In this document: one piece after another, positions 12,897-39,821 of the stretch
Position numbering within the stretch: position 1 is the first letter of the stretch
Layout: each line of letters begins with the position of its first letter
From: a virus
Reading direction: 5' to 3' (one strand)
Length of the DNA stretch: 53,593 nucleotides
Virus record (IMG/VR): IMGVR_UViG_3300007511_001472
Location: 1 to 53,593 of that record
Made by a program: the position numbers and the translations under genes
The notes under the pieces: generated by a model
The model's input: the letters and a program-made list of their open reading frames with translations, nothing else
Databases searched by the model: none
What the model was told of the DNA's origin: nothing

Positions 12897-12923
12897 AACA
12901 TTATACTTTATAAAGGAGAACAA

Positions 12924-13516: not shown

Positions 13517-13591
13517 GCCCCTATAGTTTATCTGGTAAAACAGCGGATTTGTAACCCGCAGTGCTTTGTTCAAGTCAAGGTGGGGGCACCA
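13517..13591 (+). tRNA. tRNA-Thr (anticodon UGU)
   Basis: A 75-base cloverleaf. Acceptor strands GCCCCTA (13517-13523) and TGGGGGC (13581-13587) pair with one G-T wobble. The loop TTTGTAA gives anticodon TGT, and the T loop is TTCAAGT. CCA is encoded at 13589-13591. The anticodon stem GCGGA/CCCGC has one A-C mismatch. The tRNA reads ACA codons and probably other ACN. Confidence 0.85.
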
Positions 13592-13631
13592 TTATGGTGT
13601 GATATAAAAGAAGATTTGTTTGAGTAAGAGA

Positions 13632-23495: not shown

Positions 23496-23496
23496 T

Positions 23497-25005: not shown

Positions 25006-25006
25006 T

Positions 25007-25618: not shown

Positions 25619-26157
25619 TGGGTAAATATTTTGATGAACTGCAACGAGCAATGACTTATCTCGGAGAGCAAGAAGATACAGTGTTCATAGGACAAGCAGT
25701 GGCTTATGCTGGCACCGCAATGACAAACACTCTTAAGGGTGTAGACAGAGATAAACTAATTGAAATGCCAGTCGACGAAGAAATGCAGATGGGAATCACC
25801 AATGGACTCGCAGTCAACGGTTCTGTCCCAGTTAGCATCTATCCGCGCTGGAACTTTCTTCTATGCGCCATAAATCAACTGGTTAACCACTTGGATCGCA
25901 TGCCAGCTTTTTCACACGGCGAATATACACCCAAGGCGATTATAAGGGTGGGCATCGGATCAGAAAGACCGCTAAACCCTCAAGCACAACATACAGGTGA
26001 CTTTACACAGTCGATTCGAGGCATGTTAAGAAACATTGAAGTTATCCGCTGCGAAGAACCAGAAGATGTGTTCCCAGCGTATTATAAGGCATATCACAGA
26101 ACTGATGGCAAATGCACAATTGTGGTAGAATATGGTGATTATTATGGCGAAAAGTGA
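25618..26157 (+). CDS. Thiamine-diphosphate enzyme, E1-beta/transketolase-Pyr-like subunit
   Basis: A 179-residue partner starting at the TAATG overlap. It carries the Pyr-domain pattern: DTVFIGQAVAYAGTAM, then MPVDEEMQMGITNGLAVNG, in which the Glu is the expected residue that activates the cofactor. It ends before the C-terminal transketolase domain that E1-beta proteins (about 325 residues) normally have. Together with 25007 it should form a compact heterotetramer. The substrate may be a keto-sugar nucleotide or a keto acid, which I infer only from the neighbouring genes. Confidence 0.75.
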   Translation: MGKYFDELQRAMTYLGEQEDTVFIGQAVAYAGTAMTNTLKGVDRDKLIEMPVDEEMQMGITNGLAVNGSVPVSIYPRWNFLLCAINQLVNHLDRMPAFSHGEYTPKAIIRVGIGSERPLNPQAQHTGDFTQSIRGMLRNIEVIRCEEPEDVFPAYYKAYHRTDGKCTIVVEYGDYYGEK

Positions 26158-27115
26158 TAAAAACGTACTTTTTATTACCGAGAAGTGGTGTGATGCAGAT
26201 CCCAAAAAAGGACTAACCAACAATTACCATAATCTCTTTAAGACATTTAAAGCAGTATACCCAGATACAGAGTTTAATATTGTGCACTTAGATGAATATT
26301 CAATGCTGAAAAAGAAGCATATTGATACGTTCATACCAAAACTTATAGATAATTTGTCCCCGGATATTGTAGTTTTCTCTCTTTTAGGGAAATCTCACCT
26401 CAACCCAACAGATGACAGCTATAAATGTATTAAATCTTCAGGTGCTAAAACAGTCTTTATGTGGCCCGACGTATTCGATGAGTGGGGATTACCAGAGATT
26501 CAAGAGTTAAATGATAAAGAGTTCGCGGATTTACATGTTTGTTGGGGTTCTGAGAGGAACGCCAAAGTCCAACATGATAATTTGGTCTGGCTATGGGCTC
26601 CCCAAGACGAGACTCTGTATCACCCACTACATGAAAAGATAGAACAAAGAATCCCGGTTAGCTTCTTAGGCAGCGTCAGGTATCCTGAAAGACAAAAATA
26701 TCTACAACACTTGATAGATAACAAGTCGCCTATCTATATTGACGGTGGGCAAAGAGAAAAGGGGCTCTCTGCTGCACGATATGCAGAGTTAATGAGAAAT
26801 AGTAAAATAAGCTTGAACTTCCCGCAAGGCCCACAAGGATACGACCAGTGTAAAGGTCGCGTTTGGGAGATTCTAGCTAGTAAATCGTTGCTTTTTGAGC
26901 GCAAAAACGAAGCAACCCAGAACTTTTTAAAGCCCGGTGTACACTATGTTGAGTTTAGTGATGAACAAGATTTAGTAGATAAAATACAATACTATCTTGA
27001 CAACGAGAACGAAAGGGATTATATTATAAATAAAGGTTATAAGATTTTTAAGAAGAAGTTTAATGCGACAGTATTCTGGGAATCGATAATGAAGGAGATT
27101 GATTGTGAGCTATAA
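26144..27115 (+). CDS. Glycosyltransferase-like protein (CgeB/GT-B type)
   Basis: A 323-residue protein starting at ATG 26144 (an in-frame ATG also exists at 26132). The C-terminal half is like the glycosyltransferase group-1-like domain of CgeB-type proteins: ISLNF-like core (NSKISLNFPQGPQGYDQCKG), VWEILASKSLLFERKN, then GVHYVEFSDEQDLVDKIQYY. The N-terminal half looks like a Rossmann domain (VLFITEKWCDADPKKGL). It probably adds a sugar; donor and acceptor are unknown. It overlaps the previous gene by 14 bases. Confidence 0.7.
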   Translation: MAKSDKNVLFITEKWCDADPKKGLTNNYHNLFKTFKAVYPDTEFNIVHLDEYSMLKKKHIDTFIPKLIDNLSPDIVVFSLLGKSHLNPTDDSYKCIKSSGAKTVFMWPDVFDEWGLPEIQELNDKEFADLHVCWGSERNAKVQHDNLVWLWAPQDETLYHPLHEKIEQRIPVSFLGSVRYPERQKYLQHLIDNKSPIYIDGGQREKGLSAARYAELMRNSKISLNFPQGPQGYDQCKGRVWEILASKSLLFERKNEATQNFLKPGVHYVEFSDEQDLVDKIQYYLDNENERDYIINKGYKIFKKKFNATVFWESIMKEIDCEL

Positions 27116-27935
27116 ATACGATGTCTCAATAATGATGCCGGCGATTAGAACAAGTCAGTGGCTAATGATGTATGGAAGCATTCTAAACTCATGCAAGAAA
27201 TATAGTTGGGAGTTGGTGCTTGTTAGCCCCTTCGATCTGCCCGATAACATGAAACATTTTGAAAACATTAAAATGATTAAAGATTACAGCGCCCCAAGCC
27301 GTTGTGCACAAGTCGGTGCAATCGCTTGCGAAGGCGAATTCTTGTATCACTGTGTCGACGACGCTATTTTTCTTCCCGATGCAATTGACAACGCCGTGGA
27401 GTTTCACAGAAATAACTGCACAAATAAAGATGTTGTCAACATGAGGTACCGAGAAGGTGCTTTGTTTGGTGGTCCAACTTGGCCTCAACAATTCTGGCTC
27501 GCATGGTATCATGATGAGCTACGCTTGCCGGGTATTCCGCAACATTATAAGATTTCCTGCCATCATTTTATGAAGCTTGATTATTTTAGAGAACTCGGTG
27601 GCTGGGACTGTCGCTATGAATACGTAAATCACTCACTGCACGATTTAATGTTTCGAGTGCAAGCCGATGGCGGCAGACTTTATGATTCCCAGACGGATGC
27701 AACGACATGCAATCACTATGTTGATAAAACAGGGGACCATGCACCCATCTACGATGCGCAAACATTCTTTGATAAGCCACAGTTTGATGAGATTTACTCT
27801 GTCCCAAACGCAGCTAATAAGAGAATCAAGATTCCGCTCGACAACTGGAAACAGCAACCCGATGTATGGGAAAGAAGATTTAAGAAAAATGATGAAGGCG
27901 AACTGCCTGAAAGTTATGAGGAGTTAGGATACTAA
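27105..27935 (+). CDS. GT2-like glycosyltransferase, paralogue 1
   Basis: A 276-residue protein read from GTG 27105, seven bases behind AGGAG; the in-frame TTG at 27099 is too close to that site. It has DVSIMMPAIRTSQWLMMYGS (GT-A start), EGEFLYHCVDDAIFLPDAI (the DxD-like metal site) and RELGGWDCRYEYV. Two further genes (29724, 30509) share the same order of motifs and an ending W-x5-W-x-RRF, so the three form a paralogous set. Each may add one sugar of the same oligosaccharide. Confidence 0.75.
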   Translation: MSYKYDVSIMMPAIRTSQWLMMYGSILNSCKKYSWELVLVSPFDLPDNMKHFENIKMIKDYSAPSRCAQVGAIACEGEFLYHCVDDAIFLPDAIDNAVEFHRNNCTNKDVVNMRYREGALFGGPTWPQQFWLAWYHDELRLPGIPQHYKISCHHFMKLDYFRELGGWDCRYEYVNHSLHDLMFRVQADGGRLYDSQTDATTCNHYVDKTGDHAPIYDAQTFFDKPQFDEIYSVPNAANKRIKIPLDNWKQQPDVWERRFKKNDEGELPESYEELGY

Positions 27936-28720
27936 TGGATGTAGGAGTAATTGGTGTTGGTGTCGTTGGAGGCGCCTGTAAATTTGGATTTGAGTTAGCT
28001 GGACATAACGTGTTGGTGCACGACATCGCGCTTGAAACCACGATCGATGATGTATTGCCATCAGAGGTCGTCTATATCTGTGTGCCAACCCCGCGTGATG
28101 ACGACGGTTCATGTGATATATCAATCGTCCGGCAGGTAATATTTGACCTCAAGGATCGAGGATATGAGGGCGTTGTCGCAATCAAGTCAACCGTTGTCCC
28201 GGGCACAACAGAGATACTAAGAATGCAAACTGGCATGAATATTATATTTGTTCCAGAGTTCCTTCGCGAACGCTGCGCAATCACAGATTTTACTGAGAAC
28301 CACGATGTATGTATTATTGGTTGTTCAGACGATGAAACTTTCGAAATAGTGAAAGATTGTCACGGACCATTCCCAGAAAAGTTTGTTAGATTATCCCATG
28401 CTGAAGCGGAGTTCTGTAAATATTTTAACAATGTGTATAATGCAATGTTGATTATCTTCGCAAATAGTTTCTATGAAGCTTGCAAGGAACAGGGAGTTAA
28501 CTATACCAAGGTAAAGAATGCGGTAGTGAATCGCCGGCATATCCATGGCAACTACCTCGAATGTAATGATAACTTCAGAGGCTTTGGGGGAATGTGTCTG
28601 CCAAAGGACGTATCTGCCATGGCCAAGTTAATGGAAAATACCAATGTAAACTTTTTCCAAAATCTTTTAGACGAAAATAACAATTATGAAGTAACTGTAT
28701 TCGACGGGATGCGAAAATGA
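27935..28720 (+). CDS. Short UDP-glucose/GDP-mannose 6-dehydrogenase-like enzyme
   Basis: A 261-residue protein of the nucleotide-sugar 6-dehydrogenase family. It has GVIGVGVVGGACKFG (NAD site), VYICVPTPRDDDGSCD, IKSTVVPGTTE, PEFLRE and FGGMCLPKD, whose Cys near 220 is the catalytic thiol. The C-terminal sugar-nucleotide-binding domain (another 100-150 residues) is missing and the gene ends cleanly in an ATGA overlap, so this is a natural short form, not a broken gene. It may act on an unusual substrate or be reduced in activity. Confidence 0.8.
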   Translation: MDVGVIGVGVVGGACKFGFELAGHNVLVHDIALETTIDDVLPSEVVYICVPTPRDDDGSCDISIVRQVIFDLKDRGYEGVVAIKSTVVPGTTEILRMQTGMNIIFVPEFLRERCAITDFTENHDVCIIGCSDDETFEIVKDCHGPFPEKFVRLSHAEAEFCKYFNNVYNAMLIIFANSFYEACKEQGVNYTKVKNAVVNRRHIHGNYLECNDNFRGFGGMCLPKDVSAMAKLMENTNVNFFQNLLDENNNYEVTVFDGMRK

Positions 28721-29727
28721 AAAAGATCCTTATTACCGGCAGCCAAGGTTTTATCGGCTCATACCTCTGCGCAGAGTTTTTGTCAAAGGGATACAGTGTT
28801 ATCGGCATTGACAACTTCTCAAAGTATGGTCCAATAACTCGTCCCCACGATAATCATCCCAATTTCAAGCTTATTGAAATGGATGTAATAGATCTCCCAA
28901 ATGATAAGATCCTTCCCGAACTAGAGGAAGTAGAATATATTATTTCTGGCGCCGCTATGATCGGGGGCATTACTTATTTTCACAAATATGCATATGATCT
29001 GTTAGCGACAAATGAAAGAATTATGGCATCGACATTCGATTTAGCCATTAAGCTTCACGAGAAAGGTATTCTTAAAAGAATCGTTGCTATCTCAAGCAGC
29101 ATGGTTTTTGAAAATACAACCATATATCCGACACCTGAGATAAATGTTAAGACATGCGCACCCCCACTAAGCACCTACGGCTTTCAAAAGCTGGCAGTCG
29201 AATACTTCTGCAAAGGTGCTAGTGAACAATATGGCGTACCGTATACGATTATCCGACCGTTTAACTGCGTAGGAGTCGGAGAAGAGGATGCGATTGGAGA
29301 ACATGAAGTAAAATCAGGAAACATTAAGCTCATGATGAGTCATGTACTTCCGGATATTATTAATAAGATTTTGAAAGGGCAAGACCCCTTGCATATTCTC
29401 GGCACTGGCGAACAAGTCAGATGCTATACCAATGGCAAAGATATCGCCCGCGGCATCCGAATGGCTCTCGAAAGCGACTGTGCCCTGAACGAGGACTTTA
29501 ATATATCAACTCCAGTAGCTACGTCAGTAAAAGAGTTATCAAAGGTAGTATGGAATATTCTCAATCCCGGAAAAGAGTTTAGCACAGTATCTGACGAAGC
29601 CTACGAATACGATGTTCAAAAACGCATACCTAATACATCTAAAGCACTAGCTTTGTTAGGGTTTCAAGCAGAGATCGGTCTCGAAGAATCGGTTAGAGAA
29701 GTTATAGAATATATGAGGAACAAATGA
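28717..29727 (+). CDS. NAD-dependent epimerase/dehydratase (extended SDR)
   Basis: This 336-residue SDR has GSQGFIGSYLCAEFL, SSSMVF in the Ser position, and STYGFQKLAVEYF with the Tyr-x3-Lys near 154. IIRPFNCVG and a segment ending GTGEQVRCYTNGKDIARG follow the pattern of UDP-glucuronate decarboxylase/4-epimerase-like enzymes. Because it follows the 6-dehydrogenase directly, it may act on the uronic acid product. The exact reaction cannot be read. Confidence 0.8.
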   Translation: MKKILITGSQGFIGSYLCAEFLSKGYSVIGIDNFSKYGPITRPHDNHPNFKLIEMDVIDLPNDKILPELEEVEYIISGAAMIGGITYFHKYAYDLLATNERIMASTFDLAIKLHEKGILKRIVAISSSMVFENTTIYPTPEINVKTCAPPLSTYGFQKLAVEYFCKGASEQYGVPYTIIRPFNCVGVGEEDAIGEHEVKSGNIKLMMSHVLPDIINKILKGQDPLHILGTGEQVRCYTNGKDIARGIRMALESDCALNEDFNISTPVATSVKELSKVVWNILNPGKEFSTVSDEAYEYDVQKRIPNTSKALALLGFQAEIGLEESVREVIEYMRNK

Positions 29728-30509
29728 GACCAGAGTTATCAATAATACTCCCCAGCATCCGCCCGGATCGCTTAGAGAAGTTGTACGATTCAATACTCAC
29801 ATCGACAGAGCGCACATTTGAGCTAATCATAGTTGGACCATATCCATTACCAGAGAAGCTCTCCGAACTTAAGAATGTAAAATACGTTAAGGATTTTGGA
29901 TCTCCCGTCCGAGCCTCGAACATTGCGGCTTCTTTGTGTGAGGGAGAAGTCTATACATGGTTTGCTGACGACTGCATTCTATTTGAAAACAGCTTAGACA
30001 AGTGCCTAGACGAATATCGCGCCATGGGAACTGACAACAAAAATGTCCTTGTGGCGAAGTATTATGAAGGACAAGAAGGTTCTAGAGAGCGAGAGACGCT
30101 CCAGCCCGATAGCTACTTTAGAGTTAACGGCACACCTGCAGGATCACCACACATACCAGACGATTGGTGGCTTTTTAATATTGCCTTTCTTTCAGCCGAG
30201 TTCTTCCATACTCTAGGAGGCTGGGACTGCTCTTACGAGGGAACGTGGGCATCACATGCAGATATGGCTATCCGAGCCCAATACCTTGGCGCCAATGTAA
30301 AAATGGCACAGATTCCCCTCTTTACTTGCGATCACATGCCCGGTGGCACCGGCGATCACATGCCGATCTTTCAGTGTCAGCATCAGCATGATGAACCGCT
30401 GTTACAAAGCAAGTTTAGAGACCCAAATTGGTCTACGAATGTAAACCCAAGATTAAAAATAGATAATTGGAAATCGGCCCCCGCAGTTTGGGGAAGGAGA
30501 TTTAAATAA
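29724..30509 (+). CDS. GT2-like glycosyltransferase, paralogue 2
   Basis: A 261-residue protein with LSIILPSIRPDRLEKLYDS, EGEVYTWFADDCILFENSL (acidic metal site), HTLGGWDCSYEG, a GTGDHMPIFQCQHQHDE stretch and an ending WKSAPAVWGRRFK. The order and spacing match paralogues 27105 and 30509. It overlaps the epimerase by four bases and the next gene by one. As a set the three could glycosylate adjacent positions or successive units. Confidence 0.75.
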   Translation: MRPELSIILPSIRPDRLEKLYDSILTSTERTFELIIVGPYPLPEKLSELKNVKYVKDFGSPVRASNIAASLCEGEVYTWFADDCILFENSLDKCLDEYRAMGTDNKNVLVAKYYEGQEGSRERETLQPDSYFRVNGTPAGSPHIPDDWWLFNIAFLSAEFFHTLGGWDCSYEGTWASHADMAIRAQYLGANVKMAQIPLFTCDHMPGGTGDHMPIFQCQHQHDEPLLQSKFRDPNWSTNVNPRLKIDNWKSAPAVWGRRFK

Positions 30510-31285
30510 TGGCTCGTTATGATTTATCGATATGCCTCCCCGCTCACCGTACGCACTTGTGGCAGCGCCTATATGACAGCGCTGCAGAGGCAGTTGGCGA
30601 AGACTACACATGGGAGATGGTTCTTGTCGGACCAAATGATCCACCACCTGAGTTAGCGGCAAAAGATAACTTTAAGTTTTTTAAGGACAAAGGGTCTCCT
30701 GCACGCTGTGGACAGTTGTCAACAGTGTTAGCTGAAGGCGAACTAATGATGTGGGCATCAGATGATGGCTACTTCCTTAAAGATTCGATTAAAGAGTGTA
30801 TAGAACTTCACGAAGACTTGCCATATAAAGATCTTGTGATAGTAAAATACGCCGAAGGAAGAGGTATTTCCGGCAAATGCCCGGAAGATAGCTATTGGAC
30901 AGCATGGACACACCCAGACTTGCGCCTGCAGGGAGTACCAGAAGACTTCCAGATCCACTTGTTGGCGATGTATAAGCTTGACTATTTTAGAGAGCTTGGC
31001 GGATTTGACTGCCGTTGGGAGCATTTGAACATGAATACTCATGACTTAGCTTTCCGCGCACAACGTGATGGCAGCAAGTTTCACTTTAGTCCCAATCTGG
31101 TCCTCACATGTGATTGGAACCCAAATGAAGGAGACCACATTCCTGTGCAACAAGCCTACCATGCAAATGACGCGCCGTTGTTTCATCAAGTATATTCTCA
31201 GGATCAAAGCGACAGAATAATCATTGATTATCATAACTGGGTAAAGAGCGATGCAGCTTGGAAAAGGAGGTTCCCCGATGGCTAA
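30509..31285 (+). CDS. GT2-like glycosyltransferase, paralogue 3
   Basis: A 258-residue protein starting at a TAATG overlap. Its motifs are DLSICLPAHRTHLWQRLYDS, EGELMMWASDDGYFLKDSI, RELGGFDCRWEHL, NEGDHIPVQQAYH and WVKSDAAWKRRF at the end, in the same order as the two paralogues. The gene carries AAGGAGG near its 3' end, which serves the next ATG (31278), an eight-base overlap. Function beyond sugar transfer is not known. Confidence 0.75.
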   Translation: MARYDLSICLPAHRTHLWQRLYDSAAEAVGEDYTWEMVLVGPNDPPPELAAKDNFKFFKDKGSPARCGQLSTVLAEGELMMWASDDGYFLKDSIKECIELHEDLPYKDLVIVKYAEGRGISGKCPEDSYWTAWTHPDLRLQGVPEDFQIHLLAMYKLDYFRELGGFDCRWEHLNMNTHDLAFRAQRDGSKFHFSPNLVLTCDWNPNEGDHIPVQQAYHANDAPLFHQVYSQDQSDRIIIDYHNWVKSDAAWKRRFPDG

Positions 31286-32210
31286 AACCATTTTGGTAAC
31301 AGGCGCCAATGGACTAGTAGGTTCGGCGATTAGAGATTTAGAAGAACAATATCCTCAATATAGTTTTGTGTTCTCTGGGCACAAAGAGCATGATCTAACA
31401 AATGAAGATGATGTCAAGAGACTGTTCGAAGAAGTAAAACCACAGTATGTAATACACACTGCCGCCAGAGTCGGCGGAATAGGCAGAAACCTAGCATCCC
31501 CAGCACAACAATATTACTGCAACATCTTAATGAATACGTTTGTGATTCACTATGCTCAACTCCACGGCGTTGATAAGCTGCTAGCTTTCTCGTCTGTATG
31601 CGCTTTCCCCGCGGGCTCACCGATGTTACACGAGGATAACCTACATGCAGGTGCTCCATATCCTGCGCACGGCTCTTACGCCTATTCAAAGCGTATGGTT
31701 GACGTACAAATTGAGGCGTATAAAGCTCAACACAACGTCAACTTCTGCTCTGTGATTCCGGGCAATATTTTTGGCGAGAACGACAACTTCAATCTAGAAG
31801 ATGGGCACGTTGTGCCTTCTCTCGTTCACAAAGCCTTCGTTGCCAAGAGGGATGGCGGAAGCTTGACTGTCTGGGGTGATGGAACTCCCCAACGTGAGTT
31901 TTTGTACGCCGGCGATGTCGCCCGCGTCTGCATGGAGCTTCTTCAAACAGACGGTGACTTGCCGCAAAGATTGATTGTCTCAGGACAAGAAGAGACAGAA
32001 ATAAAAGAGTTAGTATCAATGATCACAGACGCAACCGGGTACGACAATATAACATGGTTAACTGATAAGCCAAACGGACAAATGAGAAGACCAACAAACA
32101 AAGATGTGTTCAACAGTACGCTCCCCGATTTTGAATATACAGATCTCCGCGAATCAATCCAGAAGACAGTCGACTGGTTTGCTGACAACTACCCAACTGT
32201 GAGGCTATAA
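31278..32210 (+). CDS. GDP-L-fucose synthase / GDP-colitose synthase homologue
   Basis: This 310-residue SDR starts at ATG 31278 with AAGGAGG upstream. It has LVTGANGLVGSAIRDLEEQY, HTAARVGGIGRNLASPAQQ, SSVCAFPAG and SYAYSKRMVD (Tyr-x3-Lys near 134), the marks of GDP-4-keto-6-deoxymannose 3,5-epimerase-4-reductase (Fcl/WcaG). ColC of the colitose pathway is a close relative. With a ColD-like enzyme two genes downstream, either GDP-fucose or GDP-colitose is a possible product. Confidence 0.85.
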   Translation: MAKTILVTGANGLVGSAIRDLEEQYPQYSFVFSGHKEHDLTNEDDVKRLFEEVKPQYVIHTAARVGGIGRNLASPAQQYYCNILMNTFVIHYAQLHGVDKLLAFSSVCAFPAGSPMLHEDNLHAGAPYPAHGSYAYSKRMVDVQIEAYKAQHNVNFCSVIPGNIFGENDNFNLEDGHVVPSLVHKAFVAKRDGGSLTVWGDGTPQREFLYAGDVARVCMELLQTDGDLPQRLIVSGQEETEIKELVSMITDATGYDNITWLTDKPNGQMRRPTNKDVFNSTLPDFEYTDLRESIQKTVDWFADNYPTVRL

Positions 32211-33185
32211 ATGGCGAAAAAAGCATTAATAACAGGTATCAATGGACAGGATGGTTCCTATCTCAGTGAGTTTTTATTAGAAGAGGGTTATGAAGTTTAT
32301 GGCACTCTCAAGCGCAACTCTATTGCCGAGAACCAAAGTGCCCGAATCCAACACATATATCCGGAGATAAAGAATAACTTATATCATGCGGATGTTACAG
32401 ACATGTCCTCTCTGCTTTCGGTAGTGAGTAAGGTGCAGCCGGATGAGATATACAATCTTGCTGCACAAAGTCATGTACGCGTTAGTTTTGATCAACCCAT
32501 ATATACAATGGATTCGGTCGGCAGAGGAGTGCTTAACCTGCTGGAAGTAATAAGACTTACCGATTCTAAAGCAAGAATCTACCAAGCCAGTAGCTCAGAG
32601 ATGTTCGGAAACTGCATTGATCCAGACGGATTCCAACGAGAAGATACTCCCATGCACCCGGTCAGCCCATATGCTTGTTCGAAATTACTTGCATATAGTC
32701 TTATAAGATGTTATAGAGATTCATATGGTATATTTGCTAGCAATGGTATTTTGTTTAACCACGAATCTCCCCGCCGCGGCATAAACTTCGTTACTAACAA
32801 GGTAGCCCTCGGAGCAGCGAGAATCAAGAAAGGATTGCAGACTGAATTGGCATTAGGAAACCTAGACAGCACACGCGACTGGGGGCATGCCAAGGACTAT
32901 GTGAAAATCATGTGGCAAATACTACAACTTGACGAACCCGGCGACTATGTTTGTGCGACAGGCACATCACACAGCGTAAGAGATTTGTGTGAGTATGCCT
33001 TTCGACGCGTCGGATTAGATTACCGCGATTATGTTATACAGGATCCAAAGTTTTTTAGACCGACTGAGCTTCGCGATCTAAAGGGTTCTACAAAAAAGCT
33101 TGAGTCTGCGATAGATTTAAACTTTGAATACACTTTTGAGAAAATGATCGATGAAATGGTTGATCATTGGATGGAGACACTTTAA
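32211..33185 (+). CDS. gmd: GDP-mannose 4,6-dehydratase
   Basis: This 324-residue enzyme has ITGINGQDGSYLSEFLLEEG (NADP site), GTLKRNS, NLAAQSHVRVSFDQP, QASSSEMFG and SPYACSKLLA (Tyr-x3-Lys near 153), plus NHESPRRG and NLDSTRDWGHAKDYV, all diagnostic of GMD. It makes GDP-4-keto-6-deoxy-D-mannose from GDP-mannose, the common precursor of fucose, colitose, perosamine and rhamnose. The ATG directly follows the previous stop and its own stop overlaps the next ATG. Confidence 0.95.
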   Translation: MAKKALITGINGQDGSYLSEFLLEEGYEVYGTLKRNSIAENQSARIQHIYPEIKNNLYHADVTDMSSLLSVVSKVQPDEIYNLAAQSHVRVSFDQPIYTMDSVGRGVLNLLEVIRLTDSKARIYQASSSEMFGNCIDPDGFQREDTPMHPVSPYACSKLLAYSLIRCYRDSYGIFASNGILFNHESPRRGINFVTNKVALGAARIKKGLQTELALGNLDSTRDWGHAKDYVKIMWQILQLDEPGDYVCATGTSHSVRDLCEYAFRRVGLDYRDYVIQDPKFFRPTELRDLKGSTKKLESAIDLNFEYTFEKMIDEMVDHWMETL

Positions 33186-33736
33186 TGATAAAATTGAATT
33201 TAGGTTGCGGCGATAGAAAAATACACGGATTTATCAACGTCGATGCGAGAGCGGATCTTAATCCCGATGAAGTGTGCGATGTTACACTTATACATGAGAA
33301 GTTTAAGAACGCAGATCTAATCTACGCATGCCATGTGTTAGAACACTTTCCCAATAAACCATTTGAATATCAGCCCCGTACATGGGAAGACGTACTTAAA
33401 AGCTGGCACCAGGCCCTCAAAGAGGGAGGTATCCTGAGACTCTCAGTACCGGATATCAAAGCAGCTTGTGAACACTATTTGAGAACCAACGATTTCCAAT
33501 CAGTTCAGGCTTTCTTTTATGGTGGACAGAAGTACGATTTCGACTTTCATTACCACGGTTGGTCTGAAGAAACTCTAACTAAAGCTCTTTTGGGTATAGG
33601 GTTCCGCGAGGTCAGGCTATATGATTGGCAAAAGACGGAGCATTACTATGTTGATGATTATAGTCAGGCTTATCTACCTCACATGGATAAGGCGAATGGA
33701 AAACTAATGAGCTTAAATATTGAAGCGATAAAATAA
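33185..33736 (+). CDS. SAM-dependent methyltransferase-like protein
   Basis: A 183-residue class I methyltransferase-like protein starting at the TAATG overlap. LNLGCGDRKIHGFINVDAR (SAM loop, near the start), IYACHVLEHFP (motif II region) and LKEGGILRLSVPDIKA follow. Proteins of this type occur in polysaccharide clusters, where some methylate sugars. The C-terminal part is short and no substrate site is clear, so sugar O-methylation is a guess. Confidence 0.75.
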   Translation: MIKLNLGCGDRKIHGFINVDARADLNPDEVCDVTLIHEKFKNADLIYACHVLEHFPNKPFEYQPRTWEDVLKSWHQALKEGGILRLSVPDIKAACEHYLRTNDFQSVQAFFYGGQKYDFDFHYHGWSEETLTKALLGIGFREVRLYDWQKTEHYYVDDYSQAYLPHMDKANGKLMSLNIEAIK

Positions 33737-33746
33737 GGATAATAAA

Positions 33747-34916
33747 ATGGAAATTGTATACCCACTAGCAAAAGAAACTATTAATGATGAAGATGTTGAC
33801 GCGTTGTGTACATGGCTCAAGAGTTACCCGCGCCTTACAAAAGGTGCGTTGACTTGGCAGGTCGAAGAAGACTGGGCAAAGTACATCGGAACCAGATACT
33901 CAGTTTTTAATAACTCAGGATCCTCAGCAAACCTCTTAATGGTTGCTGCAGCAGTCCAAGCCGGACGCATCCCAAACAAGAAGATCGCAGTACCATCTGT
34001 AGGATGGGTTACTACTATCTCTCCAGCGATGCAACTTGGATTAGAGCCAATCATGGTCGGCGCTGACCCAGAAACATACGGCATGGATTTAGACCAGTTG
34101 GAGGCAGTTTGCGAACGCGACCGTCCTGACGCTGTTATCTTTGTCCAAGTATTGGGCGTACCGCACTACAAAGAGCGTCTGCTGGCGTTGAAGGAGAAAT
34201 ACGGGTTCATACTCCTTGAAGACGCCTGCGCGGCTCTAGGAGCCTCCTACGCCGACGGAAGCATGGTTGGGACAGTCGGCGACATGTCTTCATTCTCGTT
34301 CTACTTTGGGCACCAGTTGTCAACTATCGAGGGCGGAATGGTTAACGTAAACGACCCAGAACTATATGAAATGCTACTAATGCTTCGCTCTCACGGCTGG
34401 GCTAAGGATTTGCCGAAAGATTCATATGACGAACTGATGTCTGAACACGGCGTTGATGATTTTCATAGCCCGTTTACATTTTTTATCCCGGGATACAACC
34501 TAAGATCGACAGATTTGCAGGCATTCTTGGGTATTCGCCAGATTAAAAAGGCTGATTGGGCTGCAAGAAGGCGATACGAGAACCACTGTTTATATGCTGA
34601 AAAGCTCGAAGGATATGTAGAGTTTCAGAAGTGGGGAGACAATACTCCTGTGTCGATTTCATTTGGAGCCTTGGCTAGCAGCACCGAACATCGCCGAGAA
34701 ATAGTCGAAAGACTTGTCGCAAACGGCGTCGAAACTAGGATATATAGCGCTGGTAATCTTGGTCGGCATCCTTTCTGGACAGCCAAGTATGAAGAGTTTG
34801 TTGATGAACACAGTGACAAGATCCACTCTCAAGGCTTTTTTATCCCAAACTATCCCGAGTTGACAGCAGATGAGATTGACTTTATCTGCAACGTAGTCAA
34901 AGGCGAAGTCGAATGA
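33747..34916 (+). CDS. colD: ColD-like PLP-dependent GDP-4-keto-6-deoxymannose 3-dehydratase
   Basis: This 389-residue protein belongs to the DegT/DnrJ/EryC1 fold. The cofactor-binding motif reads SFSFYFGHQLSTIEGGM, with His at residue 189 where aminotransferases carry the Schiff-base Lys. His at that position is the hallmark of ColD (His188 in the E. coli enzyme, from memory; similar length), which removes the 3-hydroxyl of GDP-4-keto-6-deoxymannose. LLEDACAALGASY and NNSGSSANL are also typical. With GMD and the Fcl/ColC homologue just upstream, the colitose (3,6-dideoxyhexose) branch is complete. A sugar aminotransferase is excluded if the Lys is truly absent. Confidence 0.85.
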   Translation: MEIVYPLAKETINDEDVDALCTWLKSYPRLTKGALTWQVEEDWAKYIGTRYSVFNNSGSSANLLMVAAAVQAGRIPNKKIAVPSVGWVTTISPAMQLGLEPIMVGADPETYGMDLDQLEAVCERDRPDAVIFVQVLGVPHYKERLLALKEKYGFILLEDACAALGASYADGSMVGTVGDMSSFSFYFGHQLSTIEGGMVNVNDPELYEMLLMLRSHGWAKDLPKDSYDELMSEHGVDDFHSPFTFFIPGYNLRSTDLQAFLGIRQIKKADWAARRRYENHCLYAEKLEGYVEFQKWGDNTPVSISFGALASSTEHRREIVERLVANGVETRIYSAGNLGRHPFWTAKYEEFVDEHSDKIHSQGFFIPNYPELTADEIDFICNVVKGEVE

Positions 34917-35650
34917 GGATTCTCGTAATAGGAGAAAGTTGCAAAGATGTTTATCAGTACGGCGATTGTGTCAGGCTCTGCCCTGAAGCACCCGTGCCGG
35001 TCTTCCAAAGTAATCGACACCAAACGATTAATGGTGGAATGGCGATGAACGTTTACAACAATGTGTCCTCTTTATGCGAGTACCCTGTTGATCTGATTAC
35101 GAACGAGAATTGGACAGAGATCTTAAAAACAAGACTAGTCGATTTCCGTACAAATTATATAGTTTTGCGCGTAGATCAAAATGACGCCGATTATGAAAAG
35201 AGTGATATAACAAAGATCGAGTTTGAAAAATACGATGCAGTTATAATCTCGGACTATAATAAAGGATATTTGTCCGAGGATGACATTGAATATATTGCAA
35301 CGCAGCATCCAATAACATTTCTTGATACAAAAAAGATTTTAGGAAACTGGTGTCGCAATATTATGTTTATTAAGATAAATGAATTTGAATATGAGCGCAC
35401 TCGACATCGTTTGGAAGAGGATATGATTGATAAGATGATTATTACTCTTGGTCCAAACGGCGCCAAATATAAAGACGAGCTTTATAAGGTTCCCAAAGTA
35501 GAGATAAAAGATACTTCTGGCGCCGGCGATACATTTATTTCCGGACTTGTTGTAAAATATGTAGAGACCAACTCCATTGACGCGGCGATTAAATATGCGA
35601 ACGAGTGTGCCACTGCTGTTGTGCAAAAGAAAGGGGTAACAATAGTATAA
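34913..35650 (+). CDS. PfkB-family sugar kinase, HldE-N/HldA-like
   Basis: This 245-residue kinase overlaps the previous gene by four bases. It has LVIGESCKDVYQYG, INGGMAMNVYNNVSS, DAVIISDYNKGYLS and KDTSGAGDTFISGLV (the catalytic GAGD near 203). The pattern resembles the kinase half of HldE, which makes D,D-heptose 1,7-bisphosphate. It is shorter than the usual 310-330. The next gene encodes a nucleotidyltransferase like the other half of HldE, so the fused enzyme occurs here as two coupled genes. Confidence 0.75.
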   Translation: MRILVIGESCKDVYQYGDCVRLCPEAPVPVFQSNRHQTINGGMAMNVYNNVSSLCEYPVDLITNENWTEILKTRLVDFRTNYIVLRVDQNDADYEKSDITKIEFEKYDAVIISDYNKGYLSEDDIEYIATQHPITFLDTKKILGNWCRNIMFIKINEFEYERTRHRLEEDMIDKMIITLGPNGAKYKDELYKVPKVEIKDTSGAGDTFISGLVVKYVETNSIDAAIKYANECATAVVQKKGVTIV

Positions 35651-36048
35651 TGCAAAACAAAACCACCATATGGACGAACGGCTGTTTTGACGTTCTCCAC
35701 CGAGGACATTTTGAGATGCTTAAGTATGCGAAGTCTTTAGGAGACTATTTAATTGTGGGCATAGATACTGATGAGAAAGTCAAGGAGGATAAGGGGCAGA
35801 ATAGACCTTATAACCATCAGAATGATCGAAAGTTTGCGCTTGAATCAATAAGATATGTTGACGAGGTAATACTTTTTAATTCATCAAATGAATTAAAAAA
35901 CTTGATAAAAGTATTAAAACCGGATATAATGGTTATAGGTTCTGATTGGAAAGGAAAAACAGTTGTGGGGCAGGAGTTTTCACATGTGAAGTTTTTTGAT
36001 AGAATTGGCGATTATTCAACCACAAACATTTTGGAGAACAAAGGATGA
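35650..36048 (+). CDS. HldE-C/HldC-like nucleotidyltransferase
   Basis: A 132-residue enzyme starting at ATG 35650 (TAATG overlap); an upstream in-frame ATG at 35605 is unlikely. It has TNGCFDVLHRGHFEML with HxGH at 17-20, IVGIDTDEKVKEDKG, IMVIGSDWKGK and an STTNILE end. This matches the ADP-heptose-type and glycerol-3-phosphate-type cytidylyl/adenylyltransferases. Downstream of the PfkB kinase it probably activates a sugar phosphate to a nucleotide sugar. Confidence 0.8.
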   Translation: MQNKTTIWTNGCFDVLHRGHFEMLKYAKSLGDYLIVGIDTDEKVKEDKGQNRPYNHQNDRKFALESIRYVDEVILFNSSNELKNLIKVLKPDIMVIGSDWKGKTVVGQEFSHVKFFDRIGDYSTTNILENKG

Positions 36049-36386
36049 CATATGTATTCGATATTGATGGAACAATTTGTACGAAAGCAGTTGACTACGA
36101 TTACGAAGCCTCAGAACCAATACAAGAAAGAATAGATTATATTAATAGGTTATTTGAAGCCGGTCACACCGTAATATTTCAAACAGCCAGAGGTATGGGT
36201 AGGAGTAAAAACTCGGCAGCATATGCAAACGCAGCATTTTATATTATGACCCAAGAGCAGCTTAAGAGTTGGGGCGTGAAATATCACGATTTATTTTTAG
36301 GCAAGCCCGCCGGCGATATTTATATCGATGATAAAGGTGTTAGAGACACGGATTTTTTTGATAACTTAGGAGTAGAAGCTAAATGA
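36045..36386 (+). CDS. HAD-family phosphatase, small
   Basis: A 113-residue HAD protein: VFDIDGTICTKAVDYD (D6 and D8), FQTARGMGRSKNS (motif II) and FLGKPAGDIYIDDKG (Lys and the acidic motif). It overlaps the previous gene by four bases and the next by four. In heptose pathways a HAD enzyme (GmhB) removes the 7-phosphate between the kinase and nucleotidyltransferase steps; this protein fits that place by order, but its sequence type is closer to capsule-locus HAD phosphatases. Confidence 0.7.
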   Translation: MTYVFDIDGTICTKAVDYDYEASEPIQERIDYINRLFEAGHTVIFQTARGMGRSKNSAAYANAAFYIMTQEQLKSWGVKYHDLFLGKPAGDIYIDDKGVRDTDFFDNLGVEAK

Positions 36387-36751
36387 GTAAACCAACACAC
36401 GAATTGCCAATGGTTCACGTCGACAAAGGTTGGGGCTGGGAACGTTGGGTCGTAAACACCGAAGAATATTGCGGTAAACTACTATTTTTCAATAAGTCTA
36501 AGCGCTGCTCGTGGCATTACCACAAGCTAAAAGACGAGGTTTTTTATCTGCAGTCTGGAAAAATGATGATTTATTTTTCTGACAGTGATGATCTTGAAAA
36601 CGCCAACCAACTCATCTTAAACCCCGGCGATAACTTTCATGTTTATCGAGGGCTGCGCCACCAAATGGTAGCGCTGGAGGACTCGGAGCTATTCGAGTTT
36701 TCAACACAACATTTTGACTCTGATTCCTACAGAGTAATCAAAGGAGATTAA
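36383..36751 (+). CDS. Cupin-fold sugar-nucleotide/sugar-phosphate protein
   Basis: A 122-residue cupin with VDKGWGWERWVV, CSWHYHKLKDEVFYLQSGKM (metal-binding His pair and Glu) and LNPGDNFHVYRGLRHQM. It resembles the cupin domain of type II mannose-6-phosphate isomerase and related proteins of polysaccharide loci. Such a domain could isomerise fructose-6-phosphate to feed GDP-mannose to GMD, but without the nucleotidyltransferase half this is unproved. It is the last sugar gene; an AAAGGAGA ribosome site follows for 36757. Confidence 0.65.
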   Translation: MSKPTHELPMVHVDKGWGWERWVVNTEEYCGKLLFFNKSKRCSWHYHKLKDEVFYLQSGKMMIYFSDSDDLENANQLILNPGDNFHVYRGLRHQMVALEDSELFEFSTQHFDSDSYRVIKGD

Positions 36752-36756
36752 TTATT

Positions 36757-36975
36757 ATGGAAACCAAAAAACTGCAGCTATCTAACCAAGCCCTAGGCGC
36801 CATCATGATGGCACTACAAGAATCGCTTCTCAATGAGCTAGATATCGTGCCTATCCTTCGCGGATTTGAACTAACAGAGACTAATGAAGGACTTGTTGTT
36901 GAAAACCCACCAACCGTGCGCGTAACGAACAATGAGGCGATCACTAACGAAACTCTTGAAGGGCTTGTTAAATAA
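36757..36975 (+). CDS. Hypothetical small protein
   Basis: A 72-residue protein with an amphipathic helix (NQALGAIMMALQESLLNEL) followed by a beta segment (ELTETNEGLVVENPPTV). The style is like small conserved proteins in T4-like marine phages, and I cannot name the family. Its stop overlaps the next ATG (TAATG). Confidence 0.6.
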   Translation: METKKLQLSNQALGAIMMALQESLLNELDIVPILRGFELTETNEGLVVENPPTVRVTNNEAITNETLEGLVK

Positions 36976-37244
36976 TGCCTCGCTACCGATATAAATGTCG
37001 GGAATGTGAACAAGAGCAAATTATCTTTCATAAGATAGAAGAAGCCCCCACTGAATGTACTAAGTGCACTAAAGTAGGTGCTCTAGATAAAATGCTTACC
37101 ACACCATTTGTTAAGTCGCGAAGTTTGGAAGAAGAGCAGGATCCCAATGTTGGGACACTGACTCACGAATATATCGAAGCAAACCGAGATATATTAAAGA
37201 AGCAACAAGAAGAACTAAAGAAGAAATCACATGAGCCGTCTTGA
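36975..37244 (+). CDS. FmdB-like zinc-ribbon protein
   Basis: An 89-residue protein beginning PRYRYKCRECEQEQIIFHK and continuing CTKCTKVGALDKML: two CxxC pairs in the first 40 residues, the pattern of FmdB-type putative regulatory zinc ribbons. The C-terminal half is charged and probably disordered or helical. It lies between the sugar operon and the sigma factor and might act in transcription, which is inference. Confidence 0.7.
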   Translation: MPRYRYKCRECEQEQIIFHKIEEAPTECTKCTKVGALDKMLTTPFVKSRSLEEEQDPNVGTLTHEYIEANRDILKKQQEELKKKSHEPS

Positions 37245-37581
37245 AATAACACTATCAGTAATACTGACCTTATCTGTATTAATTAATATAGGTATTGGGC
37301 TCTATACACGCCTTTTAATCATCAATCTCCTGTCTGTATCAGAAGAGTTGGGTGATCTGCAGATTATGGCTAAGGGCTTCTCATCTCATCTTAAATCCGT
37401 ATATGAGTTAGAGACCTTTTATGGCGACGATACTCTTAAGAGATTATTAGATCACGCAATTTCTTTCGACGAACAGATGAAAACATTTGAATTTATTATA
37501 AACCTTACGGAAGAAGACCAAGAAACAGATGACGACTACACCAACGAATCAGAAGACGAAGCCAGCGCGCAAAACGAGTAA
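37231..37581 (+). CDS. Small membrane-anchored acidic protein
   Basis: A 116-residue protein with one N-terminal membrane segment (TLSVILTLSVLINIGIGLY, about 7-25) and an acidic cytoplasmic tail (EEDQETDDDYTNESEDEASA). Proteins of this shape sit upstream of late genes in T4-like phages, and I have no functional label. It overlaps both neighbours, by 14 and 53 bases. Confidence 0.55.
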   Translation: MSRLEITLSVILTLSVLINIGIGLYTRLLIINLLSVSEELGDLQIMAKGFSSHLKSVYELETFYGDDTLKRLLDHAISFDEQMKTFEFIINLTEEDQETDDDYTNESEDEASAQNE

Positions 37582-38263
37582 GAGCAAAAAGTCCCGTAAA
37601 AACTACTATTTTACATCTGTCCACGAAAACGCGATTATCGAATATGTTCAAACAGATTCGCCGCGACGAAAAACAGAACTGTACATAAACTTTATACAAC
37701 CAGCTTTTGACGAGATGGTTGATAAAATAGTCTTTACTTATAAGTTTACTAACTTGCCCAATATCGACAGTTTAAGAGAAGAGTGCAAGATTTGGCTTAT
37801 AACAATATTAGATAAATATGACTCTTCGAAAGGCACAAAAGCTTTTTCATATTTTTCTGTGATTACAAAAAATTGGTTTATTCACAAGGTAAAACAACAG
37901 CAGAAAAGACAAAGAAGAGAAATAAATTATAGCTCTATCCCAAAACACTATGAAGAGCAATTTTTATCAACCAATGAATCATATCTTTCAAAACGCGTAG
38001 AGAGAGAATTCTGGACATCGTTTCATCGCGAAATGCAATCTTGGGATGTAAACCTTATGAAAGAAAACGATCTCAAGGTTTATAAAGCTATCAACATCCT
38101 TTTTGAGTCGAAAGAGGACATCGATATCTTTAATAAAAAGGCTATTTATCTATATTTGCGAGAAATAACTGGGCTGAATACAAAACAAATTGTCAATTCG
38201 CTTAAGAAGTTCCGGAAACGATATCATAATTTTAAAGATGATTGGAATCACGGTAACCTGTAA
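37529..38263 (+). CDS. Late-transcription sigma factor, gp55-like
   Basis: This 244-residue basic protein has an N-terminal Lys-rich stretch, then YYFTSVHENAIIEYVQTD, IWLITILDKYDSSKGTKAF and SYFSVITKNWFIHKV, where aromatic and basic residues fit sigma region 2, which opens promoter DNA. The C-terminal part (REITGLNTKQIVNSLKKFRK) looks like an HTH. This matches gp55-type sigma factors that direct late transcription in T4-like phages. The start gives a 53-base overlap with the previous gene. The CTATTTAT motif is its candidate target. Confidence 0.75.
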   Translation: MTTTPTNQKTKPARKTSKSKKSRKNYYFTSVHENAIIEYVQTDSPRRKTELYINFIQPAFDEMVDKIVFTYKFTNLPNIDSLREECKIWLITILDKYDSSKGTKAFSYFSVITKNWFIHKVKQQQKRQRREINYSSIPKHYEEQFLSTNESYLSKRVEREFWTSFHREMQSWDVNLMKENDLKVYKAINILFESKEDIDIFNKKAIYLYLREITGLNTKQIVNSLKKFRKRYHNFKDDWNHGNL

Positions 38264-38277
38264 AATTGGTTATATTT

Positions 38278-38285
38278 CTATTTAA
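38278..38285 (+). promoter_or_regulatory. CTATTTAA motif, variant of the candidate late promoter
   Basis: CTATTTAA lies in the 45-base gap between the sigma factor gene and 38309, 31 bases ahead of the ATG. It differs by one base from the CTATTTAT copies. If the motif is a promoter, this copy would start the structural operon. Confidence 0.3.
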
Positions 38286-38308
38286 AGTATTGGAGGGAAA
38301 ATATAATT

Positions 38309-38611
38309 ATGAGTAAGAAAGATTTAGATACACTGATTGATGAAGCACTTGATAATATTCGCTCCGATCGCAAAAGCGCGAAAGAGTTCCTCAATGAGAT
38401 AGCAAACCATATAGCAAAAGATCCAGAACAGAACAAGTATCTAAGCCCTGTCGCCGCGAAACATGTAGAAACAATGCAGCGCTCTAACGAGCAGTTGGTA
38501 AAGATTATAGGTATCCGACAGAAAGGACAGGCTAGTAAGATGTCCTTAAGCGATGAGGACAAAGATAGTATATTCGATTTGATTCAGGATAGCCCCACAG
38601 ATGTCAACTAA
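38309..38611 (+). CDS. Hypothetical small protein preceding the baseplate genes
   Basis: A 100-residue soluble helical protein (TLIDEALDNIRSDRKSAKEF, then AAKHVETMQRSNEQLVKIIG). GGAGGG lies upstream. It sits right after the late sigma factor; a late co-activator (gp33-like) or small terminase-like role are possibilities, but I see no diagnostic motif for either. The next gene starts 11 bases before its stop. Confidence 0.55.
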   Translation: MSKKDLDTLIDEALDNIRSDRKSAKEFLNEIANHIAKDPEQNKYLSPVAAKHVETMQRSNEQLVKIIGIRQKGQASKMSLSDEDKDSIFDLIQDSPTDVN

Positions 38612-39809
38612 TGTATATGACTGGACTACTGTAACTTCGCCATCTGAGGCTTTAGACTGGTTTAATAACTCAATCCGGAAGGCTGCAGAATACAACGTAT
38701 TTGGAAACAAGACAGTTTTTGAAGCGATTGTTCTGGCAGACGCATACCCTTTGTCTGTGAATGCTGCCGGCACACCCGGGTATCCCCCACCCGCAGACGG
38801 TGATACGGGACCAACATGGGGAGTTAACACGCGCTTTGCGTTTAAAGCTAGAATAGTTGGTAACCCATCACCACATGCGTTCCTTCCCGATCCTTGTAAT
38901 CCGGAGTGGGCGACAGGAACTTCATTTGTCAATACAAGCATTATTGATTCACACACAACGTTTATATCACAAGTGGGGTATTCTACTGATGCTGCCAAAC
39001 GCCCCAAAACGGGAGATATCGTGCAAGTCCGGCTAAGACCGGGCTCGAACGGATATGATCTGCAATATGGTGATTTTATAAAAGTATTAGACTCTTACCG
39101 CCATGGCGCAGAAGAAAACGTACGCCCACAGTGCATGAGCATGGAGACTCTTTTTCGAGTATCCCCAAATAGTGCCGCCCTTCTGCACACAGAACCCACA
39201 CCACATTTTGATTCTATAATTCCCGACAACACGATAGCACAATATCCAACATCTGGCACTGTGACCTCGGGATTCACTTATTTGCGTATTGATCCACTTA
39301 AGCCTGAAAAAGGCGGCCGCCCCCATCCCGGGCAAGATATTGGCGCTGCAGAGGGAACCTCTGTATATCCGGCATTGGGTAGCGGAAAAGTTATTTCCAG
39401 GAACACCGGCTGCACGGCACCCCCCGACGGGGCTAGCGATGAACAGATTAACACAGCCCGGGCCTGCGGCTCCGGTTTTGGTAATTGGGTTCGGATAGAA
39501 CATACTCTCTCGAACAGCAACAAAATCTATACATCGTATAGCCACCTACTCTCAATCGACGTCACTGTCGGCGATATCGTAGAATTGACTACAAAAATAG
39601 GGGAGGTAGGACATACCGGCTGGAGTACTGGCGCCCACTTACACTGGGAAGTTTCAACTACTAGTAACTTCGCTCGTCCAACTCTCCCGAATGCCAACCA
39701 TAAAATTAGAAGAGGAGATCCAGCTAGGATGAAGCAGGTGGATCCAGCCCAGGGACTTGGACTCTCAAGGGATAGCAGCGCTGTTTCGCCAAATTCAAAT
39801 AATACTTAG
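38601..39809 (+). CDS. Baseplate-associated M23-family peptidase
   Basis: This 402-residue protein has a C-terminal LytM/M23 domain: PHPGQDIGAAEGTSVYPALG (H-x3-D zinc site near 240) and GHTGWSTGAHLHWEVS (the HLH site near 343). Such peptidases cut peptide cross-links of peptidoglycan. In T4-like phages cell-wall enzymes sit at the tail tip and open the wall during injection, and the baseplate genes downstream support that place. The N-terminal ~220 residues are a separate domain that I do not recognise. Confidence 0.85.
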   Translation: MSTNVYDWTTVTSPSEALDWFNNSIRKAAEYNVFGNKTVFEAIVLADAYPLSVNAAGTPGYPPPADGDTGPTWGVNTRFAFKARIVGNPSPHAFLPDPCNPEWATGTSFVNTSIIDSHTTFISQVGYSTDAAKRPKTGDIVQVRLRPGSNGYDLQYGDFIKVLDSYRHGAEENVRPQCMSMETLFRVSPNSAALLHTEPTPHFDSIIPDNTIAQYPTSGTVTSGFTYLRIDPLKPEKGGRPHPGQDIGAAEGTSVYPALGSGKVISRNTGCTAPPDGASDEQINTARACGSGFGNWVRIEHTLSNSNKIYTSYSHLLSIDVTVGDIVELTTKIGEVGHTGWSTGAHLHWEVSTTSNFARPTLPNANHKIRRGDPARMKQVDPAQGLGLSRDSSAVSPNSNNT

Positions 39810-39821
39810 GAGAATTAAAAT

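Follow-up and report, generated by a model that had tools for sequence, protein, structure and literature searches.

Enzymes of the ColD type, in which a His replaces Lys at the pyridoxal 5'-phosphate (PLP) site, are described as being recharged by glutamate (available text of PMC8987622). According to the accessible part of PMC10680097, the dehydrogenase Cj1427 yields L-2-hydroxyglutarate and, when combined in vitro with the C3-dehydratase of Campylobacter jejuni HS:5, PLP and L-glutamate, gives GDP-D-glycero-4-keto-3-deoxy-heptose, the C3-dehydratase turning glutamate into alpha-ketoglutarate and ammonia. As far as the available portions of the sources go, two-part E1-like enzymes have been linked to a two-carbon branch at C4 in avilamycin (PMC4425429), with the same role proposed by the authors for the enzyme of paulomycin (PMC4753412); among phages, large lipopolysaccharide (LPS) gene clusters have been reported in T4-like cyanophages (PMC3037559), and rfaE, UDP-glucose 6-dehydrogenase and radical S-adenosylmethionine (SAM) genes in a hypervariable region of pelagimyophages (PMC7029224). 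Here we analyze a glycan cassette in the viral record IMGVR_UViG_3300007511_001472 (IMG/VR; 53,593 bases, linear, examined over its whole length and hereafter called the window), centering on a PLP enzyme encoded at 33747-34916 and a short-chain dehydrogenase/reductase (SDR) encoded at 22557-23495. We consider it most likely, with moderate confidence, that a Cj1427-type C4-dehydrogenase followed by a PLP C3-dehydratase leads to a nucleoside diphosphate (NDP)-3-deoxy-4-keto sugar, probably a heptose, beside a separable Gmd-Fcl module.

The PLP enzyme and its subfamily

A first-pass annotation of the window had read Gmd, an Fcl/ColC homologue and a PLP enzyme within four adjacent genes, and Pfam matches bear out both the genes and their arrangement: an Fcl-type gene (31278-32210), Gmd (32211-33185), a methyltransferase-like open reading frame (ORF) and a DegT-family gene (33747-34916). 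The annotation had also placed His189 of the DegT-family product where PLP enzymes carry their Lys. In a phmmer alignment, the His of FSFYFGHQLSTIEGG (residue 189) indeed pairs with E. coli ColD His188, and it is kept in all 54 relatives found in viral contigs (51-99% identity), which uniformly read FGHQ and contain no stop within the matched stretches. The top four PDB sequences for the 33747 product are all ColD (phmmer; 1.2e-55 for 2gms), followed by E1 (6.7e-40), and the identity with E. coli ColD is about 32%.

An AlphaFold2 model of the protein (predicted local distance difference test score of 92, from a 23-row alignment) presents the DegT/aspartate aminotransferase fold and lacks the E1-type Cys-rich insert. 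Its closest fold is ColD (Z 48.6, 2.1 Å over 376 residues), ahead of E1 dehydrase (45.2) and Lys aminotransferases (45.0 or less). Neither the model nor the alignment to ColD and aminotransferases, both suggested in the first-pass annotation, puts a Lys in the PLP position. Because of the His there, Lys aminotransferases, for example perosamine synthase, were rejected. An enzyme of the E1/RfbH type (CDP route, Fe-S partner) was likewise rejected, given that ColD leads in both phmmer and fold searches and that the E1 Cys-rich insert is absent; RfbH is the best NCBIfam model for the product, yet it scores 193 bits against a cut-off of 423. Taken together, these comparisons support the presence, in a phage, of a predicted His-type DegT enzyme (3-dehydratase type) beside Gmd and an Fcl homologue. 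Two of the viral loci (L036 and L045) hold a second ColD-type gene (31% identical; 12486-13625) downstream of the window-type gene.

To place the enzyme among its cellular relatives, we used a family-alignment scan of GTDB contigs, which returned 76 loci; L250, a fragment only, was left out. Matches of at least 48.5% over 300 residues were termed window-type (59 loci), and 16 loci fell under that line. The position of ColD Glu162 is occupied by Ala in 54/54 viral rows and, among the window-type bacterial rows, by Ala in 58 and Pro in one, against Glu in all 16 other bacterial or archaeal rows and Asp in the E1-like row compared. At the position of ColD His189, Gln is found in 54/54 viral rows and in 57 of the 59 window-type bacterial rows (His in the other two), against His in 16/16 of the others. 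The 32 window-type rows listed retain the residues corresponding to ColD Trp88, Asp159, Ser183, His188, Phe240, Asn248, Arg250 and Glu329.

A 53-row tree puts the phage set (16 rows) and the Gmd-linked set (15 rows, including L247, which has no Gmd in its stretch) each on one side of a branch, both with support of 100/99, and leaves 22 rows ungrouped. The enzyme of Synechococcus phage ACG-2014f lies inside the Gmd-linked group and the 33747 product outside it. The place of E. coli ColD itself is unsure, because it sits on a long branch and joins the E1-type row. By residues and tree, the 33747 product is assigned to a separate subfamily, which lies outside the Gmd-linked 3-dehydratases and lacks the ColD residues at positions 162 and 189.

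Conserved pairing with a Cj1427-type dehydrogenase

The sole strong PDB match of the 22557-23495 product is 6vo6/6vo8 (5e-90; next 2e-24), titled as Cj1427, with one entry solved with GDP-D-glycero-D-mannoheptose. The predicted SDR model superposes on six Cj1427 chains with template-modelling scores of 0.91-0.95 at 46-49% identity (about 48%). By sequence and by fold, the closest solved structure is thus Cj1427, a Campylobacter GDP-heptose C4-dehydrogenase.

We counted partners in 49 of the 54 viral records, leaving out five contigs shorter than 15 kb; all hold a ColD-like gene by choice, and whole records were used because Gmd and Fcl are rare near that gene. A relative of the SDR is present in 43/49 (45-98% identity), and in five of the six records without it the contig extends 0-3391 b upstream of the ColD-like gene. 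Gmd of at least 50% identity occurs in 10/49 records (four more have 29-32% matches); Fcl of at least 54% is confined to these 10 and present in each, with lower matches at 47-48% in two other records and at 27-37% in another ten; the E1-beta-like gene (E1b) is found in 30/49 and an LhgO-like gene in 6/49. According to these counts, Gmd and Fcl are present or absent as a pair, in the manner of a separable module, and the regular partner is the SDR. A group of nine phage records (G058, G061, G064, G068, G077, G082, G087, G091 and G097) carries ColD-type genes (31-33%) with a 31-35% Gmd-like gene and without a Cj1427-type gene, perhaps representing a further 4,6-dehydratase route.

The same pairing is seen in bacteria. 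In stretches reaching at most 8 kb to either side of the gene, 57 of the 59 window-type loci have the SDR (at least 40%), which lies within 3 kb in 54 of these, and none has Gmd (at least 40%) or HldE-like genes. Fcl types (at least 30%) are present in 22/59 loci, E1b in 5/59, a relative of the radical SAM protein (at least 38%) in 35/59 and an E1-alpha-like match (at least 24%, which may include unrelated E1 genes) in 23/59. The pattern is inverted in the remaining 16 ColD-type loci, with Gmd (at least 40%) in 12 and the SDR in none. Going by their titles, 34 window-type loci are Nitrospira-type (Nitrosospira in two titles), and the other 25, from Elusimicrobia, Acidobacteria and others, have the SDR in 23 cases. 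The two loci without the SDR are L175 and L225. L175 lies on a contig filed under a Chlamydiia metagenome-assembled genome; its enzyme, a 74% relative, is placed by the tree among the phage sequences, and the contig is possibly that of a phage, binned with the bacterium.

The gene order in Nitrospira sp. RSF48 (L233) is 3-dehydratase, Fcl-type, Cj1427-type, GHMP kinase, nucleotidyltransferase, E1 alpha, E1 beta and B12-radical SAM. The best NCBIfam match of the GHMP kinase is HddA (123.6 bits against a cut-off of 600) and its best PDB match a heptose-phosphate kinase (8.6e-36); the nucleotidyltransferase matches mannose-1-phosphate guanylyltransferase first (147.2 bits) and HddC second (112.5 bits). 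This order speaks for GDP-heptose, without proving it.

Upstream of the SDR gene in the window, and overlapping it by 4 b, lies an LhgO-like gene (21469-22560), whose product scores 272 bits with the L-2-hydroxyglutarate oxidase model (cut-off 299), followed by type 2 glycerol-3-phosphate oxidase (216 bits). The gene adjoins that of the C4-dehydrogenase in 6/6 other records having LhgO, with -1 to 21 b between the match ends; in G001, one of these records, the genes are a 98% copy of those in the window. Judging from these assignments, the SDR, the PLP enzyme and the LhgO-like protein may form a cofactor cycle.

Layout of the cassette

The viral record has matches to a baseplate wedge protein and PhoH and, weakly, to a late sigma factor (3.8e-04); a DNA search of positions 20000-40000 at megablast sensitivity gave no match among named phages. 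The cassette spans about 16.9-36.8 kb and contains glycosyltransferases, a flavin adenine dinucleotide (FAD) oxidoreductase, several SDR enzymes, a B12-radical-SAM protein, two short thiamine pyrophosphate (TPP)-enzyme subunits and a UDP-sugar dehydrogenase-like protein, then the Fcl-type, Gmd, methyltransferase-like and DegT genes, an HldE-like kinase with a nucleotidyltransferase, and finally a HAD protein and a cupin. The features discussed here are the following:

21469-22560, + strand: LhgO-like FAD oxidoreductase (NCBIfam L-2-hydroxyglutarate oxidase, 7.2e-81)
22557-23495, + strand: Cj1427-type SDR, putative NDP-heptose (or hexose) C4-dehydrogenase (PDB 6vo6/6vo8, 5e-90; G..G..G and YxxxK motifs)
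23497-25005, + strand: B12-binding radical SAM protein, possible late tailoring enzyme (Pfam Radical_SAM and B12-binding; CPFRCSFC motif)
25007-25618, + strand: short TPP-enzyme subunit, E1-alpha-like, PP domain only (Pfam E1_dh; PDH E1 alpha 2.5e-19 over 158/203 aa)
25579-26157, + strand: short TPP-enzyme subunit, E1-beta-like, PYR domain only (Pfam Transket_pyr without Transketolase_C)
27935-28720, + strand: UDP-glucose/GDP-mannose dehydrogenase-like protein (Pfam UDPG_MGDP_dh_N and central domain)
31278-32210, + strand: Fcl-type SDR, putative C3/C5-epimerase and C4-reductase (proposed GDP-L-fucose synthase; Epimerase 8.5e-50)
32211-33185, + strand: GDP-mannose 4,6-dehydratase, Gmd (Pfam GDP_Man_Dehyd 2.5e-112; TIGR01472 382 bits, cut-off 415; PDB 1n7g 2.3e-95)
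33167-33736, + strand: small methyltransferase-like protein (Pfam Methyltransf_23 2.6e-07)
33747-34916, + strand: putative PLP 3-dehydratase, ColD type, separate subfamily (Pfam DegT 3.4e-65; His189; Ala replacing ColD Glu162)
34913-35650, + strand: HldE-N-like sugar-phosphate kinase, short (TIGR02198 9.6e-30)
35650-36048, + strand: HldE-C / glycerol-3-phosphate cytidylyltransferase-like nucleotidyltransferase (TIGR02199 2.1e-35; PDB cytidylyltransferases 1.1e-26)
36045-36386, + strand: HAD-family phosphatase-like protein (TIGR01689 5.2e-10, below its cut-off)
36383-36751, + strand: cupin, possible sugar isomerase (Pfam Cupin_2 1.8e-06)

The start of the Fcl-type gene was set at the ATG at 31278, with AAAGGAGG upstream; the program-made ORF begins at 31251. 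Outside the cassette, the window carries a complete transfer-messenger RNA gene at 7352-7695 (RF00023; 108 bits, gathering score 47), whose tag is ANNNNNFESVRLAA, and a single tRNA-Thr(tgt) gene at 13517-13591, immediately upstream of the PhoH gene.

The HldE-like kinase gene stands directly downstream of the PLP enzyme gene in 40/54 viral loci by match distance (41/54 by ORF order, window included). As a control for this adjacency, we took the 89 loci of kinase-based scans (L086-L174), of which 8 lie on contigs with a window-type gene, and searched 50 of the remaining 81, leaving out 31; the 50 records were hand-picked, long contigs first but not strictly. Of these records, 2 had the window-type enzyme (identities of 51% and 43%), 21 had more distant relatives and 27 had neither; Cj1427-type genes occurred in 19 and Gmd-like genes (E-value of at most 1e-30) in 16. 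Since 48/50 control records are without the window-type enzyme, the kinase appears to be a lineage gene unspecific to the pathway, and hldK was rejected as a functional partner, its adjacency being mostly synteny.

The two overlapping TPP genes (25007-26157) encode chains of 203 and 192 aa that cover the PP and PYR domains only, and their Nitrospira L233 counterparts are full length. Compared by eye, the alpha chain reads GDM in the phage versus GDG in Nitrospira, with EDN after both, and the beta chain DEE versus SED, stretches that may correspond to the TPP motif and the catalytic Glu.

Proposed pathway and alternatives

In the pathway that we infer, the 22557 enzyme would oxidize an NDP-sugar at C4, the most likely substrate being NDP-D-glycero-manno-heptose. 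Alpha-ketoglutarate would take up the hydride and become L-2-hydroxyglutarate, which the LhgO-like protein could return to alpha-ketoglutarate. The PLP enzyme, charged to pyridoxamine 5'-phosphate (PMP) by glutamate with release of alpha-ketoglutarate, would then take off the C3 hydroxyl, leaving an NDP-3-deoxy-4-keto sugar. Later steps may comprise reduction, or a reaction at C4 in which the two-part TPP enzyme adds a two-carbon branch, and tailoring by the B12-radical-SAM protein, before glycosyltransferases would attach the sugar to a surface glycan, presumably one of the host. A separable GDP-L-fucose module within the cassette would consist of Gmd and Fcl.

Several observations weigh against this proposal. 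No sequence feature decides between heptose and mannose; the matches to HddA and HddC, which come from Nitrospira L233, are far under their cut-offs; and HldE-like genes are missing from all 59 window-type bacterial loci. The C4-dehydrogenase gene lies 10.3 kb from the 33747 gene, with Gmd at 0.6 kb and Fcl at 1.5 kb, and the absence of the SDR from viral record L051 may be real, because its 12.2 kb of upstream sequence is room enough in the window's gene order. The SDR apparently serves other pathways too, since 17/50 control records have it but not the window-type enzyme, a more distant ColD type being present in 8 of these. LhgO occurs in few records (6/49) and under the NCBIfam cut-off, E1b is missing from 19/49, and the loss of Glu162 could mean altered chemistry. 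Finally, the counts describe the sample and are not independent trials, because the records are related fragments and the bacterial set consists largely of Nitrospira.

The first-pass annotation had read the locus as a pathway to GDP-colitose, in which Gmd would produce GDP-4-keto-6-deoxymannose, the ColD-like enzyme GDP-4-keto-3,6-dideoxymannose and the Fcl/ColC homologue GDP-L-colitose. Part of this reading holds: a His-type enzyme does stand beside Gmd and an Fcl homologue, all three within 3.7 kb; ColD is the nearest solved structure to the 33747 product, which keeps ColD Trp88, Arg250 and Glu329; and a trio of these gene types is contiguous in the phages ACG-2014f and S-CAM7. The joining of the three into one pathway is not supported, given that Gmd of at least 50% identity is missing from 39/49 related records and that of at least 40% from every window-type bacterial locus, and that the key enzyme belongs to a separate subfamily that has lost Glu162. 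Compared with the E. coli proteins, the Fcl homologue has 26% identity to ColC and 29% to Fcl, finds its best PDB matches in GDP-L-fucose synthases (8.4e-70) and does not join the E. coli ColC branch of a ColC/Fcl tree, a weak point against colitose because ColD-linked Fcl types are scattered in that tree, where they need 4 changes and ColC cannot be separated from Fcl. Colitose keeps some probability because the window holds all three gene types, and we regard it as unlikely; another 3-deoxy surface sugar is more likely, since the key enzyme usually accompanies a Cj1427-type first enzyme and not Gmd. The trio that the annotation had thought rare is less so than supposed, as contiguous Gmd, Fcl and ColD with His occur in ACG-2014f and S-CAM7. 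Neither a phage colitose nor a phage 3-deoxy-heptose pathway appeared in titles or abstract openings among the literature matches listed, a weak absence given the partial coverage.

Two variants retain oxidation at C4 and differ in substrate or in later chemistry. If the C4-dehydrogenase acted on GDP-mannose or another NDP-hexose, the product would be an NDP-3-deoxy-hexose with the C6 hydroxyl still in place; Gmd in the window makes a GDP-mannose pool likely, and the best NCBIfam match of the Nitrospira nucleotidyltransferase (147.2 bits) is a mannose-1-phosphate enzyme. We judge this rather improbable, as the nearest solved relative is a heptose enzyme with one entry containing GDP-heptose, a heptose-kinase-type gene is a neighbor in Nitrospira, and an HldE-like set lies downstream in the phage, the last being weak in view of the kinase control. 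The boldest reading, also unlikely, is a C4-branched 3-deoxy-heptose, in which the two-chain TPP enzyme would add a two-carbon unit at C4 after the dehydrogenase and 3-dehydratase, the B12-radical-SAM protein would tailor the product, LhgO would close the alpha-ketoglutarate/L-2-hydroxyglutarate cycle, and a related route would operate in Nitrospira and Elusimicrobia. The branch is not part of the pathway that we favor, because the phage chains cover single domains and 19/49 records are without E1b; to our knowledge, such a sugar is known from no organism. It is also conceivable, but very unlikely, that window-type enzymes have left 3-deoxygenation for other PLP/PMP chemistry on a 4-keto sugar. 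The replacement of Glu162 (Ala in 54/54 viral, Ala or Pro in 59/59 bacterial rows) and of the second ColD His by Gln (54/54 and 57/59) would fit such a shift, against which stand the retention of the catalytic His, Asp159, Ser183, Phe240, Asn248 and Trp88 in the rows compared and the closeness of the fold to ColD.

Comparison with known systems

With E. coli ColD (2gms, 3b8x), the phage enzyme shares the DegT fold, the PLP-site His, Asp159, Ser183, Trp88 and Arg250, and neither has the E1-type Cys-rich insert. It differs in having Ala for Glu162 and Gln for His189, and in having a C4-dehydrogenase rather than Gmd as its usual partner. Synechococcus phages ACG-2014f (gp223-225) and S-CAM7 (gp232-230) resemble the window in carrying a phage cassette with Gmd, an Fcl type and a His-type 3-dehydratase, with a tail fibre gene within the stretch examined, but their enzymes bear the ColD signature (CES, HH). 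Within the stretches examined, a Cj1427-type query had a single match in ACG-2014f, at 24%, and found nothing in S-CAM7 or E. coli O55. The contiguous Gmd, Fcl-type and ColD-signature genes of ACG-2014f (L002:7053-10170) and S-CAM7 (L005:6085-9143) are annotated only as epimerases and an aminotransferase. Finding Gmd and Fcl next to a DegT enzyme of the His type does not by itself prove colitose.

The pelagimyophage hypervariable region holds LPS-type genes of the same kinds as the cassette, likewise in T4-like marine phages, but the available part of PMC7029224 names no 3-dehydratase or C4-dehydrogenase there. AviB1/AviB2 and Pau11/Pau12, likened here by their descriptions in the portions available of PMC4425429 and PMC4753412, also present an E1 alpha/beta pair beside deoxysugar genes; these are two-part pyruvate-dehydrogenase-like enzymes, whereas the phage chains are single-domain (203 and 192 aa).

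A further parallel is the heptose modification of C. jejuni with Cj1427 and the HS:5 C3-dehydratase, which, from the accessible description in PMC10680097, likewise unites a Cj1427-type dehydrogenase with a PLP 3-dehydratase, the 3-dehydratases being likened by description. In HS:5, the 3-dehydratase follows a 4,6-dehydratase and the mixture with Cj1427 was made in vitro, whereas the pair in the phage cassette is linked in genomes. Surface-sugar genes are known in phages, but the sugar made is rarely resolved, and the pairing described here yields a testable substrate and cofactor cycle. C4-oxidation followed by C3-deoxygenation of GDP-heptose, as seen in the available account of mixing Campylobacter enzymes in vitro, would now be linked to natural gene clusters of marine phages and of Nitrospira.

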